In this document: positions 42,715 through 48,901 of the stretch, one piece after another
How the letters are laid out: the number at the start of each line of letters is the position of its first letter
How positions within the stretch are numbered: the first letter of the stretch is position 1
From: Lachnospiraceae bacterium
GTDB taxonomy: Bacteria; Bacillota; Clostridia; Lachnospirales; Lachnospiraceae
Direction: 5' to 3'
DNA: 64,000 nt
Assembly: GCA_017935565.1 (NCBI GenBank)
Contig: JAGBHK010000042.1
Span: 33,789-97,788, forward strand
The notes under the pieces: generated by a model
The model's input: the letters and a program-made list of their open reading frames with translations, nothing else
Told to the model about the DNA's origin: nothing
Database searches by the model: none
Position numbers and translations under genes: made by a program

Positions 42715-45387
42715 ATGCGTTTCAAAAAACTTATGGCAGTAGTATTAACTGCCGCTATGACCGTGGGGTTGTTTAGTGCTGCAAAATTCTCATCACCAAT
42801 GTCGGCTAATGCAGCATCATTTTCTGATTTAAGCCAAAACGACATCGTATCTGCAATGGGGGCAGGATGGAATCTTGGCAATCAGCTTGAAGCCTGTATA
42901 GGAGGTGTTCCTTACGAAACCGCCTGGGGCAATCCAACAATTTCAGAAGGCCTTATCAAAGCCGTAAAGGCAGCAGGCTTTAGCACAATCCGTGTTCCAG
43001 TATCTTACCTTAGTAAGATTGGAAGTGATTACACAATCGATTCTTCTTGGTTAAACAGAGTTAAAGAGGTAGTTGATATGTGTATCAACAATGATTTGTA
43101 TGTAATCATCAATATGCATGGTGATGGCTACAATTCAGTAGATGGCGGATGGCTTCTTTGCAATGGTTCTGACCAAACTACAATCAGAGCAAAATACAAG
43201 GCTTGTTGGCAGCAAATTGCAAACAAATTCAAAGATTATGATGAACATCTTATTTTTGAATCTATGAACGAAGAATTTGATGGTACATACGGTACCCCAA
43301 ATACTACTTATTATTCAAACATTAATGCTCTCAATCAGATTTTCGTTGACACTGTTCGTCAGACAGGCGGAAACAATGCAATGAGATGGTTAATGGTTCC
43401 TGGATGGAATACAAATATTGAATACACAGCAGGTAATTATGGTTTCGTAGTTCCTTCAGATAATTACAGATCAAGCTCTATTCCATCAAGTGAAAAGAGA
43501 ATTATGATCTCTGTTCACTATTATGATCCATGGGGATTCTGTGGCGAAGAAAGTTCAACATATACACAGTGGGGTTCTACTGCTACAGACAGTTCAAAAG
43601 TTTGTACATATGGTTATGAATCATTCATCCAGTCAGAGTTTGGTAAAATGTATAACACATTTGTCAGCAAGGGATACCCTGTAGTTATTGGTGAATATGG
43701 TGCTATCGATAAATCAGCTTATGATTCTAAAAACTTGGCATGTAGAGAAGAATACGCTAAAAAAGTATGTACATACGCTAAACAGTACGGTTGCGTGCCA
43801 GTATGGTGGGATAATGGTTACAATGGAACATATGGCTTTGGTCTTTTTGATAGAAACACATATGCAGTTACACAGCAGAGCATAATCAATGCAATTATTG
43901 GCGTTATGGGAACAGGTAGTTCGTCTTCTGGCGGTTCATCTTCTGGTGGTTCATCTTCTGGCGACTCATCAAGTTCTACTAGTGGAACAGTGATTTTCTC
44001 AAATGGTTCATCAGATGTATCATATTCAACATCAGATGCATCATGGTTGACAAAGGCATCTGATAGTGCAACAATTACATTAAAATATACATGTACAGAT
44101 TCAAGTCATGGATATTGGGGTGTACTTGGCTGGGGAGCATCAGTTAATGGTAATTGGGTAAATGGCAATAGCTACAGCGCTGCTGCCACAGCAACAGATA
44201 CAGTAACAGTAACATTTACAGCAGGAGAATTAAAGAGTAGCCTTGGAATTACAAGTAGTTCATCAGTTGATTATCTTGCTCTTAGCGCATATAATGGCGG
44301 TAAGATTGTGAGCCTTTCAATTTCAGATAGTGGTTCATCTTCTGGTAGTTCATCAAGTGGGAGTTCTGGCAATGGAAACACTGGTAGCGGAAATTCTTCA
44401 TCGAGTGGAACTGGTTCAACAGGTGGCTCAACAGACTCTGGCTCAACTTCGACAACTACTACATTGGAATTAAACGCTAACAAATTAACAAAAGGTACTT
44501 ATAAATCTGATTACACATATGGTGATTTCACAATTGGCGCATCATCAAGCAAATATATTTCAGTTGAAAGTACATCAGCTACAATCAACGGAACATCTTA
44601 TACACAGAGAATTAAGATGAATGGTGCAGCAAATAGCACAGGACGTTATATTAAGTTTACTACAACAGGCGCTGCTTCAGTTGATATTATTGGCATTTCA
44701 ACAAGTTCAGGTGCTACAAGAGTAATTAGACTTGCAAAAGATAGCGTTGGCGGAACAACTGTTGGCGATATCACAGTTACAAACACACCTGGCGTACAGA
44801 CTATTAAGGTTTCAAGCGCAGGTACATATTACCTTTATTCAACAAATAGTGGTATTTATGTATATGATGTTAAGGTGACTACAACTTCTTCTAGTTCGTC
44901 ATCTAACTCATCTTCAAATTCTTCATCTTCTAGTTCTTCAGGAACTTTGGATGGAACATATTATATAAAGAGTTCTTACAGCGGAAAATATCTTGATGTA
45001 GCTGATGGTTCATCTGCTAATAGCGCAAATATTCAGCAGTACAGTTACAACGGAGGCGCTGGACAGAAGTTCAAATTAGTATCTGCAGGCGATGGATATT
45101 ACTACATCTACACAGGTGCTTCAAGCTACTCAAAAGTAATCGATGTAGCAGGTAAGAGCACAGCAGACGGCGCAAATATTTGCCAGTACTCATACAATGG
45201 TAACTCAAATCAGAAATTTAAACTTACTGAGGTATCAAGTGGTGTATACGCAATTCTTACAGGTGTAACAAACGACGCATCTTGTCTTGACGTATATAAC
45301 TGGAGCACTGAAGATGGCGGCAATATCGCTCAGTGGTCATACTGGGGTGGCGCTTGCCAGCTTTGGATACTTGAAAAGGCTAACTAA
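42715..45387 (+). CDS. Secreted multimodular GH5 endoglucanase with C-terminal CBM13
   Basis: 890 residues. Signal peptide ending near ANA-AS (about 33). The GH5 domain (about 38-400) has GAGWNLGNQLEA, FESMNEEFD with acid/base Glu186, SVHYYDPW and VIGEYGAI with nucleophile Glu327; it most resembles subfamily 4-like endo-beta-1,4-glucanases or xyloglucanases. Ser/Gly linkers then separate a beta-sandwich module (about 420-545), a second beta module (about 585-720) like those on pectate lyases, and a C-terminal ricin-type CBM13 beta-trefoil with three repeats (QKF, QKF, QLW). No dockerin or sortase motif. GGAGGAG ribosome site; structured leader upstream, strong terminator downstream. Confidence 0.93.
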   Translation: MRFKKLMAVVLTAAMTVGLFSAAKFSSPMSANAASFSDLSQNDIVSAMGAGWNLGNQLEACIGGVPYETAWGNPTISEGLIKAVKAAGFSTIRVPVSYLSKIGSDYTIDSSWLNRVKEVVDMCINNDLYVIINMHGDGYNSVDGGWLLCNGSDQTTIRAKYKACWQQIANKFKDYDEHLIFESMNEEFDGTYGTPNTTYYSNINALNQIFVDTVRQTGGNNAMRWLMVPGWNTNIEYTAGNYGFVVPSDNYRSSSIPSSEKRIMISVHYYDPWGFCGEESSTYTQWGSTATDSSKVCTYGYESFIQSEFGKMYNTFVSKGYPVVIGEYGAIDKSAYDSKNLACREEYAKKVCTYAKQYGCVPVWWDNGYNGTYGFGLFDRNTYAVTQQSIINAIIGVMGTGSSSSGGSSSGGSSSGDSSSSTSGTVIFSNGSSDVSYSTSDASWLTKASDSATITLKYTCTDSSHGYWGVLGWGASVNGNWVNGNSYSAAATATDTVTVTFTAGELKSSLGITSSSSVDYLALSAYNGGKIVSLSISDSGSSSGSSSSGSSGNGNTGSGNSSSSGTGSTGGSTDSGSTSTTTTLELNANKLTKGTYKSDYTYGDFTIGASSSKYISVESTSATINGTSYTQRIKMNGAANSTGRYIKFTTTGAASVDIIGISTSSGATRVIRLAKDSVGGTTVGDITVTNTPGVQTIKVSSAGTYYLYSTNSGIYVYDVKVTTTSSSSSSNSSSNSSSSSSSGTLDGTYYIKSSYSGKYLDVADGSSANSANIQQYSYNGGAGQKFKLVSAGDGYYYIYTGASSYSKVIDVAGKSTADGANICQYSYNGNSNQKFKLTEVSSGVYAILTGVTNDASCLDVYNWSTEDGGNIAQWSYWGGACQLWILEKAN

Positions 45388-45404
45388 TTATTAGCAATAA
45401 ATTA

Positions 45405-45433
45405 GGGTGGTATCGGATTTTCCGATACCACCC
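45405..45433 (+). terminator. Terminator hairpin after GH5
   Basis: Perfect 12-bp stem GGGTGGTATCGG with a 5-nt loop, 17 bp after the stop, followed by TTGCTTGTTCTG. Confidence 0.75.
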
Positions 45434-45472
45434 TTGCTTGTTCTGAATGTAAATTGGTGATAAACGATGATT

Positions 45473-45730
45473 TTACGTGGTTTTGCAACAATTTATGAAT
45501 GACACACGTAACAAATCTGATTAAAATCAGGAATAATTACTATAGTTACGTGCATATCGAATCTTAAAACTATTTCACACGTAAAACAACTCAATTTCAC
45601 CAAAAAAAGTTCCTTTAATCTTAAAAATATACGTGTGAATTCGCAAAACTATTATCAACACACGTATATTTTTCGATTTCTGCTATAAATCTTACGTGTA
45701 TATCTCTTTAACACTACCATTCACGCGTAA
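45473..45730. repeat. Four 39-bp units with TTACGTG / CACGTAA ends
   Basis: Units at 45473-45511, 45546-45584, 45629-45667 and 45692-45730, each exactly 39 bp, each starting TTACGTG (third: ATACGTG) and ending CACGTAA (third: CACGTAT; fourth: CGCGTAA). The 25-bp cores are not conserved, and gaps are 34, 44 and 24 bp. This fills the 359-bp gap between the GH5 terminator and the convergent PD-(D/E)XK-like gene; no reading frame is present. Confidence 0.8.
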
Positions 45731-45746: not shown

Positions 45747-46544
45747 TTACAACACTTCTTTCAACATATTTTCTAGCAAGAATATATTTAATGGTTTCTT
45801 GGAATACTCAAATGTTGCAAACAAGTCCTTTCCCAAAAAAATACCATTTTTATGATAATTCTCTAATTTATTAACCACTTTTTTTGAGTATTTAGGATCA
45901 TCCATCATACCAAAATGCTCTATATACTTTTCACTTCTTGTACTAATATCAAGTATAGTAAAATCTGGATATATTACGCCATAACCCTTCAAGTACAATG
46001 GAAATTCATATCGATAAGGTATGCCCATACTGTACAATTTATCAGCAATTATTTTTTCAGATTTTGATCTAACTCTTTCACCACGCTCCGTCATAATAAC
46101 ATTATCATCATCTAAAAAAGTTTTCCCATTATATTCAACATTTATCCATTCTTTAATATATTCTTCATCAGATAATACAACTGGCTTTATCAATATTCTA
46201 CGTTCTGGAATTAAATTCATATGTAGGTTTTGCAATCCTGCATCATCCAAATTTTCGAGAATTAGTTCCATTCTTTTTTTCTCTTTTTTTGCTTTTGAAA
46301 CAAATTGCCGCTCATAATCTCTTTGAGCAAATTTCTTAGCCTTTTTTATCTGATTCTTGCGTATGTATATTCTCTTATTTTTATCTTTAGGTATGTAGTG
46401 ATATTGAGTATTTCCATGTGATTTTGATACTTGCAAAACACCTTCAGGTGCGTTTTGTAAAGATTTTTCTAATTTTATAATGACCTTTTCTAGATTATCA
46501 ATTCTTTCATGATATAGTTCTTTTAAGATTTTTATTTCTTTGAT
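45747..46544 (-). CDS. PD-(D/E)XK-like nuclease-fold protein with apparent ATC start
   Basis: 265 residues if started at ATC 46544. The C-terminal half has RSKSEKIIADKL, YRYEFPLYL, YPDFTILD and YIEHFGMMDD, a pattern I recognise from small clostridial proteins of the PD-(D/E)XK/restriction-like fold (E in the first block, D in PDF). The N-terminal 36 residues (KEIKILKELYHERIDNLEKVI ... NAPEGVLQVSKSHGN) have no ATG, GTG or TTG before residue 37, but GGAGG lies seven bases before ATC, and a consensus promoter is just upstream. Family members, as I remember them, carry exactly this N-terminal helix and PEG motif. A TTG at 46436 is the alternative start. Function unknown. Confidence 0.75.
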   Translation of the reverse strand: MKEIKILKELYHERIDNLEKVIIKLEKSLQNAPEGVLQVSKSHGNTQYHYIPKDKNKRIYIRKNQIKKAKKFAQRDYERQFVSKAKKEKKRMELILENLDDAGLQNLHMNLIPERRILIKPVVLSDEEYIKEWINVEYNGKTFLDDDNVIMTERGERVRSKSEKIIADKLYSMGIPYRYEFPLYLKGYGVIYPDFTILDISTRSEKYIEHFGMMDDPKYSKKVVNKLENYHKNGIFLGKDLFATFEYSKKPLNIFLLENMLKEVL

Positions 46545-46578
46545 AGTAACGCCTCCTAGTATATTAATAATAAATTAA

Positions 46579-47611: not shown

Positions 47612-48901
47612 TTACATGTTCCAAATAGAAAAAAGTGGGAGGTTTAGGATGCCGTTTGAGATTGACATTGTGTCTGTTGTTATTCGTACAGACATATTAT
47701 TCTTATAACGTTCCTTATAAACCTTCAAACTTTGCGCCTTCGTATTCTCTTCTAAATTTATCTCTATTGGAATTATGTTGTCTCCATCTTCAAATATGAA
47801 ATCTATTTTTGCTGTAGCCGATGATGTCCAATAATATATCTTTGATACATTTGGATTGTGTAACAATTCCTCAAATACATATTGAACCGCTAATGCTCCT
47901 TCAAAACGCTTCAAAATATCTGATTCTTCAAAATCATCCATTGTAAGCCCATACATAGATGACAACAAACCAATATCGGTTAAAAATAACTCGAAGGATT
48001 TTTTGTCTCTTCCTGCTTCTAATGGAGCCTTAGGTGTTGCCACTTTATACAATGGAGTAACATATTTTTCTTCAATCAAATATTTTACTGCATCCTGATA
48101 TTCTCTGGCGCGAGCTGTAATCTTTACTGAACCATACTGAAACTTTTTATTTTCCTGTGCAAGCTGCTTTGGTATACTTTCCCAAACTTGCTTGACTTTA
48201 CTTGAAAATGCTTTATTTTCAAGGTTTTCAAAATCATTGATATAACTAAAAATGATATTACTTTTCTCGGTTTCAGCCTCACTCAAACTATCAGTTTCAA
48301 CATATGTTTTAACAACGCTTGGCATACCCCCAATAAGCATATATGTTTTCAAATATTGCTTAATTCTAAGCAAGTATGTCTGGTCTATTTTCTTCTTGCT
48401 GTTCTCTTCAATAAGAGTACATAAATCGTCCTCTCCATTAACTCGCAAAAACTCACTAAAACTCAATGGATATAACGTTACAAAATCAACCGCATCATTT
48501 AAAAATGCATTGTTTTCTATAATGGAAAGCTCGTTTTTCATTGTTGTAAAACAAATATGATACTCTTTCAACTCTTTGCTAAGAAAATCAATAATATCTA
48601 TATAATTAGATATACTATCAATATTTTCTAAAATTACGAAAGTCTTTTCCGGTTCAATATTTTCACCACAAGTCACGCTCAGCATTTTAATTATTCGACT
48701 TTTCTCTAATTCACCCTCAAAAATAAAACGAACATATTCTTGAGTATTTAAATCAAAATACGCGGTATTATCATAAAAACCCATACCAAAATCATTCAAA
48801 GTCCAAGTTTTACCAACGCCTCTAGCGCCTGCCATAAAAAGCATTTTTCGATTTTTATTTTCTTTCCACTCTTCAAGCCATGTTAAAATCTCTCGATACA
48901 T
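47612..48901 (-). CDS. AAA_14/DUF4143 ATPase
   Basis: 429 residues. N-terminal AAA domain with P-loop MAGARGVGKTWTLNDFG and Walker B-like FVILENIDS, then YPLSFSEFL, a family signature. The C-terminal DUF4143 part has LIGGMP and a PD-(D/E)XK-like strand series (YYWTSSATAKIDFIFEDGDNIIPIEINLEE) as is common in this family. These proteins are widespread, often in many copies, with unknown function. Divergent from DUF4250. Confidence 0.9.
   Translation of the reverse strand: MYREILTWLEEWKENKNRKMLFMAGARGVGKTWTLNDFGMGFYDNTAYFDLNTQEYVRFIFEGELEKSRIIKMLSVTCGENIEPEKTFVILENIDSISNYIDIIDFLSKELKEYHICFTTMKNELSIIENNAFLNDAVDFVTLYPLSFSEFLRVNGEDDLCTLIEENSKKKIDQTYLLRIKQYLKTYMLIGGMPSVVKTYVETDSLSEAETEKSNIIFSYINDFENLENKAFSSKVKQVWESIPKQLAQENKKFQYGSVKITARAREYQDAVKYLIEEKYVTPLYKVATPKAPLEAGRDKKSFELFLTDIGLLSSMYGLTMDDFEESDILKRFEGALAVQYVFEELLHNPNVSKIYYWTSSATAKIDFIFEDGDNIIPIEINLEENTKAQSLKVYKERYKNNMSVRITTDTMSISNGILNLPLFSIWNM

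Follow-up and report, generated by a model that had tools for sequence, protein, structure and literature searches.

REPtrons join a specific transposase to a set of short repeats: inverted doublets with spacers are dispersed in extragenic DNA and linked to that transposase (PMC3116915, PMC8266576), and repetitive extragenic palindromes (REPs) generally number more than 100 copies per genome (PMC2817692). We analyzed a window of 64,000 nucleotides from a Lachnospiraceae bacterium (contig JAGBHK010000042.1; the draft genome comprises 2,481,474 bases [2.48 Mb] and is 81% complete), in which an array of four inverted-repeat units lies beside a gene for a putative nuclease of an unnamed family, and traced this gene and its repeats through related genomes. 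Among described systems, the REPtron (TnpA-REP/RAYT, of the HUH family, with REP/REPIN) appears to be the closest in its way of working. Ssn, a GIY-YIG single-strand nuclease with NTS repeats nearby, also has a nuclease gene with repeats in its vicinity, but it differs in nuclease fold and, to our knowledge, has no helical phasing. Plasmid iteron and partition-site arrays are phased protein sites adjoining the gene that encodes the binding protein; here, instead, the units are inverted with long cores, the partner is of a nuclease type, and extra arrays lie elsewhere.

As in REPtrons, a nuclease-type gene is accompanied by apparently cognate inverted repeats, the repeated word seems to co-evolve with the protein, and repeats are dispersed in intergenic DNA without the gene for 4 of the 6 words examined genome-wide, although not for the word of the window. 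The enzyme, by contrast, is PD-(D/E)XK-like by motif and not a HUH/Y1 transposase, which places the locus outside the REPtrons proper; each half-site is a short word of about 8 bp, unit spacing follows whole helical turns, and the units seen here number from a few to tens, compared with the >100 copies usual for REPs (PMC2817692).

An inverted-repeat array beside a putative nuclease gene

The array (45473-45730) consists of four 39-bp units of the form TTACGTG-N25-CACGTAA within 258 bp, with 0, 0, 2, and 1 mismatches, exactly where an earlier note on the letters of this window had placed them. Unit 1 (45473-45511, with half-sites at 45473-45479 and 45505-45511) and unit 2 (45546-45584) match the pattern exactly; unit 3 (45629-45667) reads ATACGTG...CACGTAT, with two mismatches, and belongs to an inverted repeat whose 15-nt arms (45623-45637 and 45659-45673) are complementary throughout; unit 4 (45692-45730) has one mismatch, in its right arm CACGCGTAA. 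The earlier note was right that the units are of equal length with differing cores. It described the gaps as irregular, which they are, but missed that the start-to-start distances of 73, 83, and 63 bp amount to about 7, 8, and 6 helical turns. The array lies, as it had also remarked, downstream of two convergent genes, between the end of a plus-strand cellulase gene (45387) and that of a minus-strand gene (45747-46544), the stop codon of which is 16 bp from the last unit. The identification of this minus-strand gene, encoding a PD-(D/E)XK-type protein, as the partner of the array is new to the present analysis.

With up to 3 mismatches, the pattern occurs 5 times in the window against 1.9 expected, and at least 5 matches were reached in 4 of 100 shuffles; the loose pattern by itself is only mildly unusual, and the signal is the presence of the four best matches within 258 bp. 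In the draft genome, the degenerate form WTACGYG-N25-CRCGTAW has four places without mismatch, all of them the units of the window. At up to 2 mismatches on the forward strand there are 20 places, compared with 74 for a reversed-pattern control, and loose matches are therefore without genome-wide excess.

Arrays accompany the gene across the family

The flanks of each gene were scored for repeated inverted units sharing word and length, using thresholds of 26 and 36, at 116 gene loci, 104 of which had both flanks readable (at least 350 bp). An array with a score of at least 26 was present beside 89 of the 104 genes, compared with 4 of 400 control windows taken elsewhere in those loci and 3 of 220 dinucleotide shuffles; at a score of at least 36, the corresponding numbers were 67 of 104, 2 of 400, and 0 of 220. 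The 104 genes include duplicates, namely L037/L038, with identical proteins, and L120/L132, which form one split locus. Score 26 was reached upstream in 82 of 105 readable flanks and downstream in 13 of 115, so that the downstream array of the window represents the minority form. Both paralogues in the window's genome and several relatives likewise have the array downstream or on both sides, and score 26 was reached on both sides in four loci (L032, L046, L065, and L092). Arrays contain up to 17 units in the scanned stretch (L079), some are regular tandem repeats, and cores are frequently repeated within one array.

A sample taken later and evenly across the phylum contained nine full-length genes from three genomes, and one of the genes (L221) has a word in common with genes of the first set; 7 of the 9 reached score 26 and 6 reached 36. 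One locus of this sample that encodes an N-terminal fragment scored 27. None of 10 loci encoding the nuclease domain only reached score 26, several of their flanks being short or missing and some perhaps not true flanks of the gene.

Several loci deserve separate mention. Downstream of the family gene in L065 (4906-5040) there is a short tandem repeat with spacings of 37 and 74 and inverted arms GCACAAAC, unlike the upstream array of the same gene and probably unrelated to it; this 37-bp repeat was kept in the phasing, anatomy, and association counts. Genome G043 carries six distant family members (L122, L131, and L154-L157), four of them without an array at score 26, which may mark a subfamily with other sites. 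Split family genes were also encountered: L120/L132 has no array, and L130 has a weak two-unit score of 26.

Units are phased by whole helical turns and constrained in their arms

In 60 arrays, the half-sites occupy approximately positions 11-18 from the unit center, which puts the half-site centers about 30 bp apart, and the cores are not conserved. In REPtrons, every repeat folds into a single-strand hairpin, in many cases with a tag motif. By inspection, the half-sites here are words of about 8 bp pairing across a core of about 20 bp, and some of the words are palindromic themselves. Within 23 regular arrays, the mean pairwise difference was 6.6% in the arms, 32.5% in the cores, and 32.4% in the gaps. 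Identity between orthologous arrays (7 of 14 compared pairs, pooled) was 397/432 in the arms, 319/435 in the cores, and 625/737 in the gaps, with p 3e-6 for the difference between cores and gaps.

Array detection ignores spacing except for a ban on overlap. The 60 arrays provided 118 distinct start-to-start distances of up to 130 bp, 113 of which fall at 51-54, 61-65, 72-75, 83-86, 94-96, 103-108, or 124-126 bp, the other five being 37, 48, 91, 92, and 101 bp; the best period is 10.50 bp (R 0.79). When one array was retained per protein cluster at 60% identity (50 clusters), the period was again 10.50 bp with R 0.77, against a maximum of 0.34 in 2000 jittered sets, and R values at 50% identity (0.73, 39 clusters) and 45% identity (0.66, 27 clusters) also exceeded those of all 2000 jittered sets. 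The distances are multiples of 10.5 bp, and the sites therefore lie on one face of the helix.

The half-site word follows the protein lineage

A half-site word similarity of at least 0.8 was found in 8 of 8 gene pairs with more than 80% protein identity, in 10 of 20 at 60-80%, in 3 of 32 at 50-60%, and in 33 of 2286 below 50%; the word belongs to the individual protein lineage. The list of discordant word pairs (8 pairs) is inflated because a unit in tandem arrays can be read in two registers (e.g., L026), and several false word similarities arose because the L018 units overlap.

Distinct lineages coexist within single genomes. Lachnospiraceae RM5 has five family genes; besides the one whose word is followed genome-wide below, clear arrays accompany three of the other four, with the different words ACGGATA, TTACTAG, and CTATAAA, and the fourth has only a weak downstream array score. 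Treponema bryantii has two members, the second of which is 37% identical to the window protein; their words, TTCCAACAA and TTCCGACAA, are one base apart, and each has a separate array. The window's genome contains two further members, with 33-34% identity to the window protein, and seven full-length family genes are present in genome G212.

A putative nuclease with a patchy distribution

The partner protein matched no Pfam family, one NCBIfam model far below its cut-off, and three PHROGs weakly. A Pfam scan of 51 family members returned 19 weak families with one member each and no Y1 transposase, and a PDB sequence search returned four weak, unrelated chains. In the alignment of the 51 members, K167, E169, E186, D200, E215, and E252 are invariant (E169, D200, and E215 in 51/51), and H216 is nearly invariant within an E-H-F-G block; an HxH motif is not among the invariant or nearly invariant columns. 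The family thus carries an active-site pattern of the PD-(D/E)XK type, E, D, E (H/K), and is a putative nuclease; the fold is presumably PD-(D/E)XK, a name that we assign from the motif and from general background. The nuclease domain is also found, without the N-terminal half, in other, mostly larger proteins.

In the frame of the partner gene, the first ATG, GTG, or TTG is at 46436, codon 43 of P0001, within the conserved region. An AGGAGG on the minus strand (46542-46562 region) precedes an in-frame ATC at 46544-46542 by 7 nt, and an atypical start is therefore suggested, either a true one or the product of an assembly error.

The relatives search covered 61 genomes and found the gene in 17, counting that of the window; within RM5's genus, 2 of 9 genomes have it, one of them being RM5. 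In the phylum sample, the profile matched in 15 of 299 genomes, with full-length members in 4, again counting the window's genome. From the 260 relatives detected in GTDB contigs, the best 80 were retained; many of these 80 are from Lachnospiraceae, and Treponema and Fibrobacter are represented as well.

Phage or plasmid cargo was considered and rejected: phage, plasmid, and viral collections contain few members of the family. Eight relatives on viral contigs each match part of the protein only. Among phage records there are three relatives, one of which, on a 4.2-kb fecal record without annotation, covers 96% of the protein. Five partial matches were found in plasmid records, four of them in genes annotated as AAA family ATPases; none of 72,556 plasmid records covers 80% of the protein, which separates the family from the plasmid setting of iteron and partition arrays.

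Arrays away from the gene

For the four words with gene-free arrays or single units, the additional places are intergenic. In the window's genome, the L017 word has one more array (C19, 83.4-83.8 kb; 18 matches vs 2 in the control), and the L018 word recurs as arrays at C10 and at C33 (180.6 kb) and as single places at C21 and C33 (135 kb); all five lie between listed open frames, none of which is a family gene. The RM5 word has eight further arrays or single units, 8/8 between listed open frames, and the multi-unit gene-free arrays of RM5 have spacings of 63-64 and 74-75, with one 5-mismatch place set aside. In the T. bryantii genome, TTCCAACAA has no further exact place; TTCCGACAA, for which no search of its own was run, turned up among the matches with 2 and 3 mismatches, both at its gene and, as a single unit, at one other place. 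Gene-free arrays occupy convergent, tandem, and divergent intergenic regions alike.

Some of these arrays are copies of one another. In RM5, C7a and C15 share a block that begins at the outer half-site of unit one and ends roughly 15 bp beyond the final unit of C7a; to the left of it, the flanks are unrelated. In the window's genome, an ungapped comparison of the arrays at C10 and C33 shows similarity inside the array and not outside it. An array upstream of mreB is unmatched in 6 same-genus genomes that have that region, with no clean junction there because the flank is rearranged. The array part of a DNA query with the RM5 C7b array is unmatched in 8 genus relatives, in which the intergenic DNA is too diverged for an empty-site call.

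A different long inverted-repeat element (L163, 2780-3045) adjoins the gene-free array of the window's genome on C33, near 180.3 kb, and has partial copies at C8 and C3.

Proposed mechanism and alternative explanations

From the association of gene and array, the matching of word to protein, the phasing, the arm constraint, the gene-free arrays, and the copied blocks, we infer a mechanism of binding by dimers, cutting, and spread by array copying. The four units of the window would be the cognate sites of the protein encoded beside them, and that this protein binds them is, judging from the sequences, very likely. A dimer would bind each unit through its N-terminal half, dimers would assemble side by side on neighboring units of the same helix face, and the PD-(D/E)XK domain would cut the DNA held in that complex; breakage and copying of array DNA would then spread the repeats as non-autonomous blocks into intergenic regions. 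The window locus would be a compact member, with one gene, four units, and no copies elsewhere in the draft genome. We consider the full REPtron-like account, a nuclease gene with cognate double-stranded DNA sites, to be probable, though clearly less so than binding itself.

Conserved half-sites relative to cores and gaps, spacing quantized at 10.5 bp, and a word that follows the neighboring protein all give good support to selection for a protein-bound architecture, as the earlier note had proposed. Its further suggestion of recombination sites fared less well in that no recombinase was found linked to the array, although a role related to recombination is possible given the adjoining putative nuclease gene and the array blocks copied between intergenic regions. 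Of the conservation in relatives that it had looked to, the architecture is kept and the word is not.

Several observations weigh against the proposed mechanism. The window's word is not repeated exactly anywhere else in the draft genome; the loose-pattern count in RM5 is 35, compared with 39 for the reversed-pattern control, the gene-free case there resting on clustered, near-perfect units; and no clean empty site was found. Copying may not run purely from end to end, given that one C7a/C7b alignment reaches about 85 bp further left and that a looser gapped alignment of C10 and C33 extends beyond the array. Of the 104 genes, 15 had no array at score 26; among these are four of the six distant G043 members and one split locus that entered the count twice. 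Three of 14 ortholog pairs lack arms above cores: the trend is reversed in L074/L085 and L060/L087 and absent in the near-identical pair L080/L086. Core hypervariability is seen between orthologous arrays, whereas within single arrays it is not (core above gap in 12 of 23), and we accordingly make no claim of core hypermutation as a footprint of cutting. Finally, spreading does not require phasing by whole turns, which is just as compatible with a standing nucleoprotein complex.

Such a complex is at the heart of the main rival, a chromosome-organizing or host-beneficial DNA-binding protein for which the arrays would be fixed platforms for assembly (of an insulator, nucleoid, or partition-like kind), with the nuclease fold serving structure or a triggered cut instead of spreading. 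The whole-turn spacing both beside the gene and far from it, the arm constraint, and the indifference of arrays to the orientation of the flanking genes would all suit this explanation. It sits poorly with the patchiness of the gene, which only 1 of the 8 other genomes of RM5's genus shares, with the absence of matches to the C7b array part in those 8 genomes and to the mreB-upstream array in the 6, and with array blocks that are copies of one another, and we regard it as unlikely. An operator through which the protein represses its own gene is less probable still. The earlier note called the position of the array unusual for a promoter operator, which is true of the window locus but not of most relatives, in which the array is upstream, the arrangement that autoregulation would predict. 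Yet the window gene, both same-genome paralogues, and several relatives have it downstream or on both sides, and neither the 17 units of L079, nor arrays elsewhere, nor invariant active-site residues would be expected of an operator. Downstream, two-sided, and gene-free arrays led us to reject an operator as the full account; autoregulation may operate in addition to the proposed nuclease mechanism.

CRISPR and TIGR are guide arrays with which the repeats invite comparison, and hairpins or guide RNAs with variable loops of constant length would explain why loop length is fixed and loop sequence is not. Phasing at 10.5 bp, however, belongs to double-stranded DNA, the mismatches in the arms are without clear strand bias (G.T 43, A.C 29, other 74), each of the four window cores has 0 exact matches in viral contigs, and cores are frequently repeated within an array; an RNA-level array was rejected on the phasing, the mismatches, and the lack of viral matches to the window's cores, and we give it very little credence. 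Least credible of all is chance or a simple tandem-repeat artifact: the loose pattern is not rare in the window or the genome and some arrays are regular tandem repeats, but the controls reached score 26 in only 4/400 and 3/220 cases, and heterogeneous arrays, such as that of the window, retain arms and phase despite differing cores.

Returning to the nuclease and its cognate sites, the chances are about even, in our judgment, that they represent an undescribed class of gene plus landing site, in which a PD-(D/E)XK nuclease assembles on helically phased, protein-specific inverted repeats and spreads array blocks through the genome, with distinct lineages coexisting in one cell and relatives in gut and rumen Lachnospiraceae, Treponema, and Fibrobacter. 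No description of the family was found by title or abstract in the open-access literature, which is weak evidence, the search being narrow and most subscription papers and all bioRxiv preprints lying outside its scope. The novelty would consist in the unrelated enzyme and the phased site geometry; by lifestyle alone, the system would be of the REPtron kind. A family without a library name gains a concrete candidate DNA substrate and a testable code, with dozens of natural protein-site pairs that differ in word but have a single geometry in common. Should the nuclease act on its array, the REPtron way of life would have been invented a second time, independently, and the family would be a source of site-specific DNA-binding nucleases; if the protein only binds, it would be an unusual natural case of evolution preserving helical phasing over hundreds of bases.

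Neighboring features of the window

The cellulase gene that converges on the partner gene (42715-45387) encodes a glycoside hydrolase family 5 (GH5) enzyme with ricin-type lectin domains and serine-rich linkers. A 14-bp perfect inverted repeat 3' of it, on the plus strand (45404-45434), forms a strong hairpin that is probably its terminator and lies outside the array. Beyond the partner gene, a minus-strand gene at 47612-48901 encodes an ATPase of the AAA_14/DUF4143 family, a frequent neighbor of mobile DNA.
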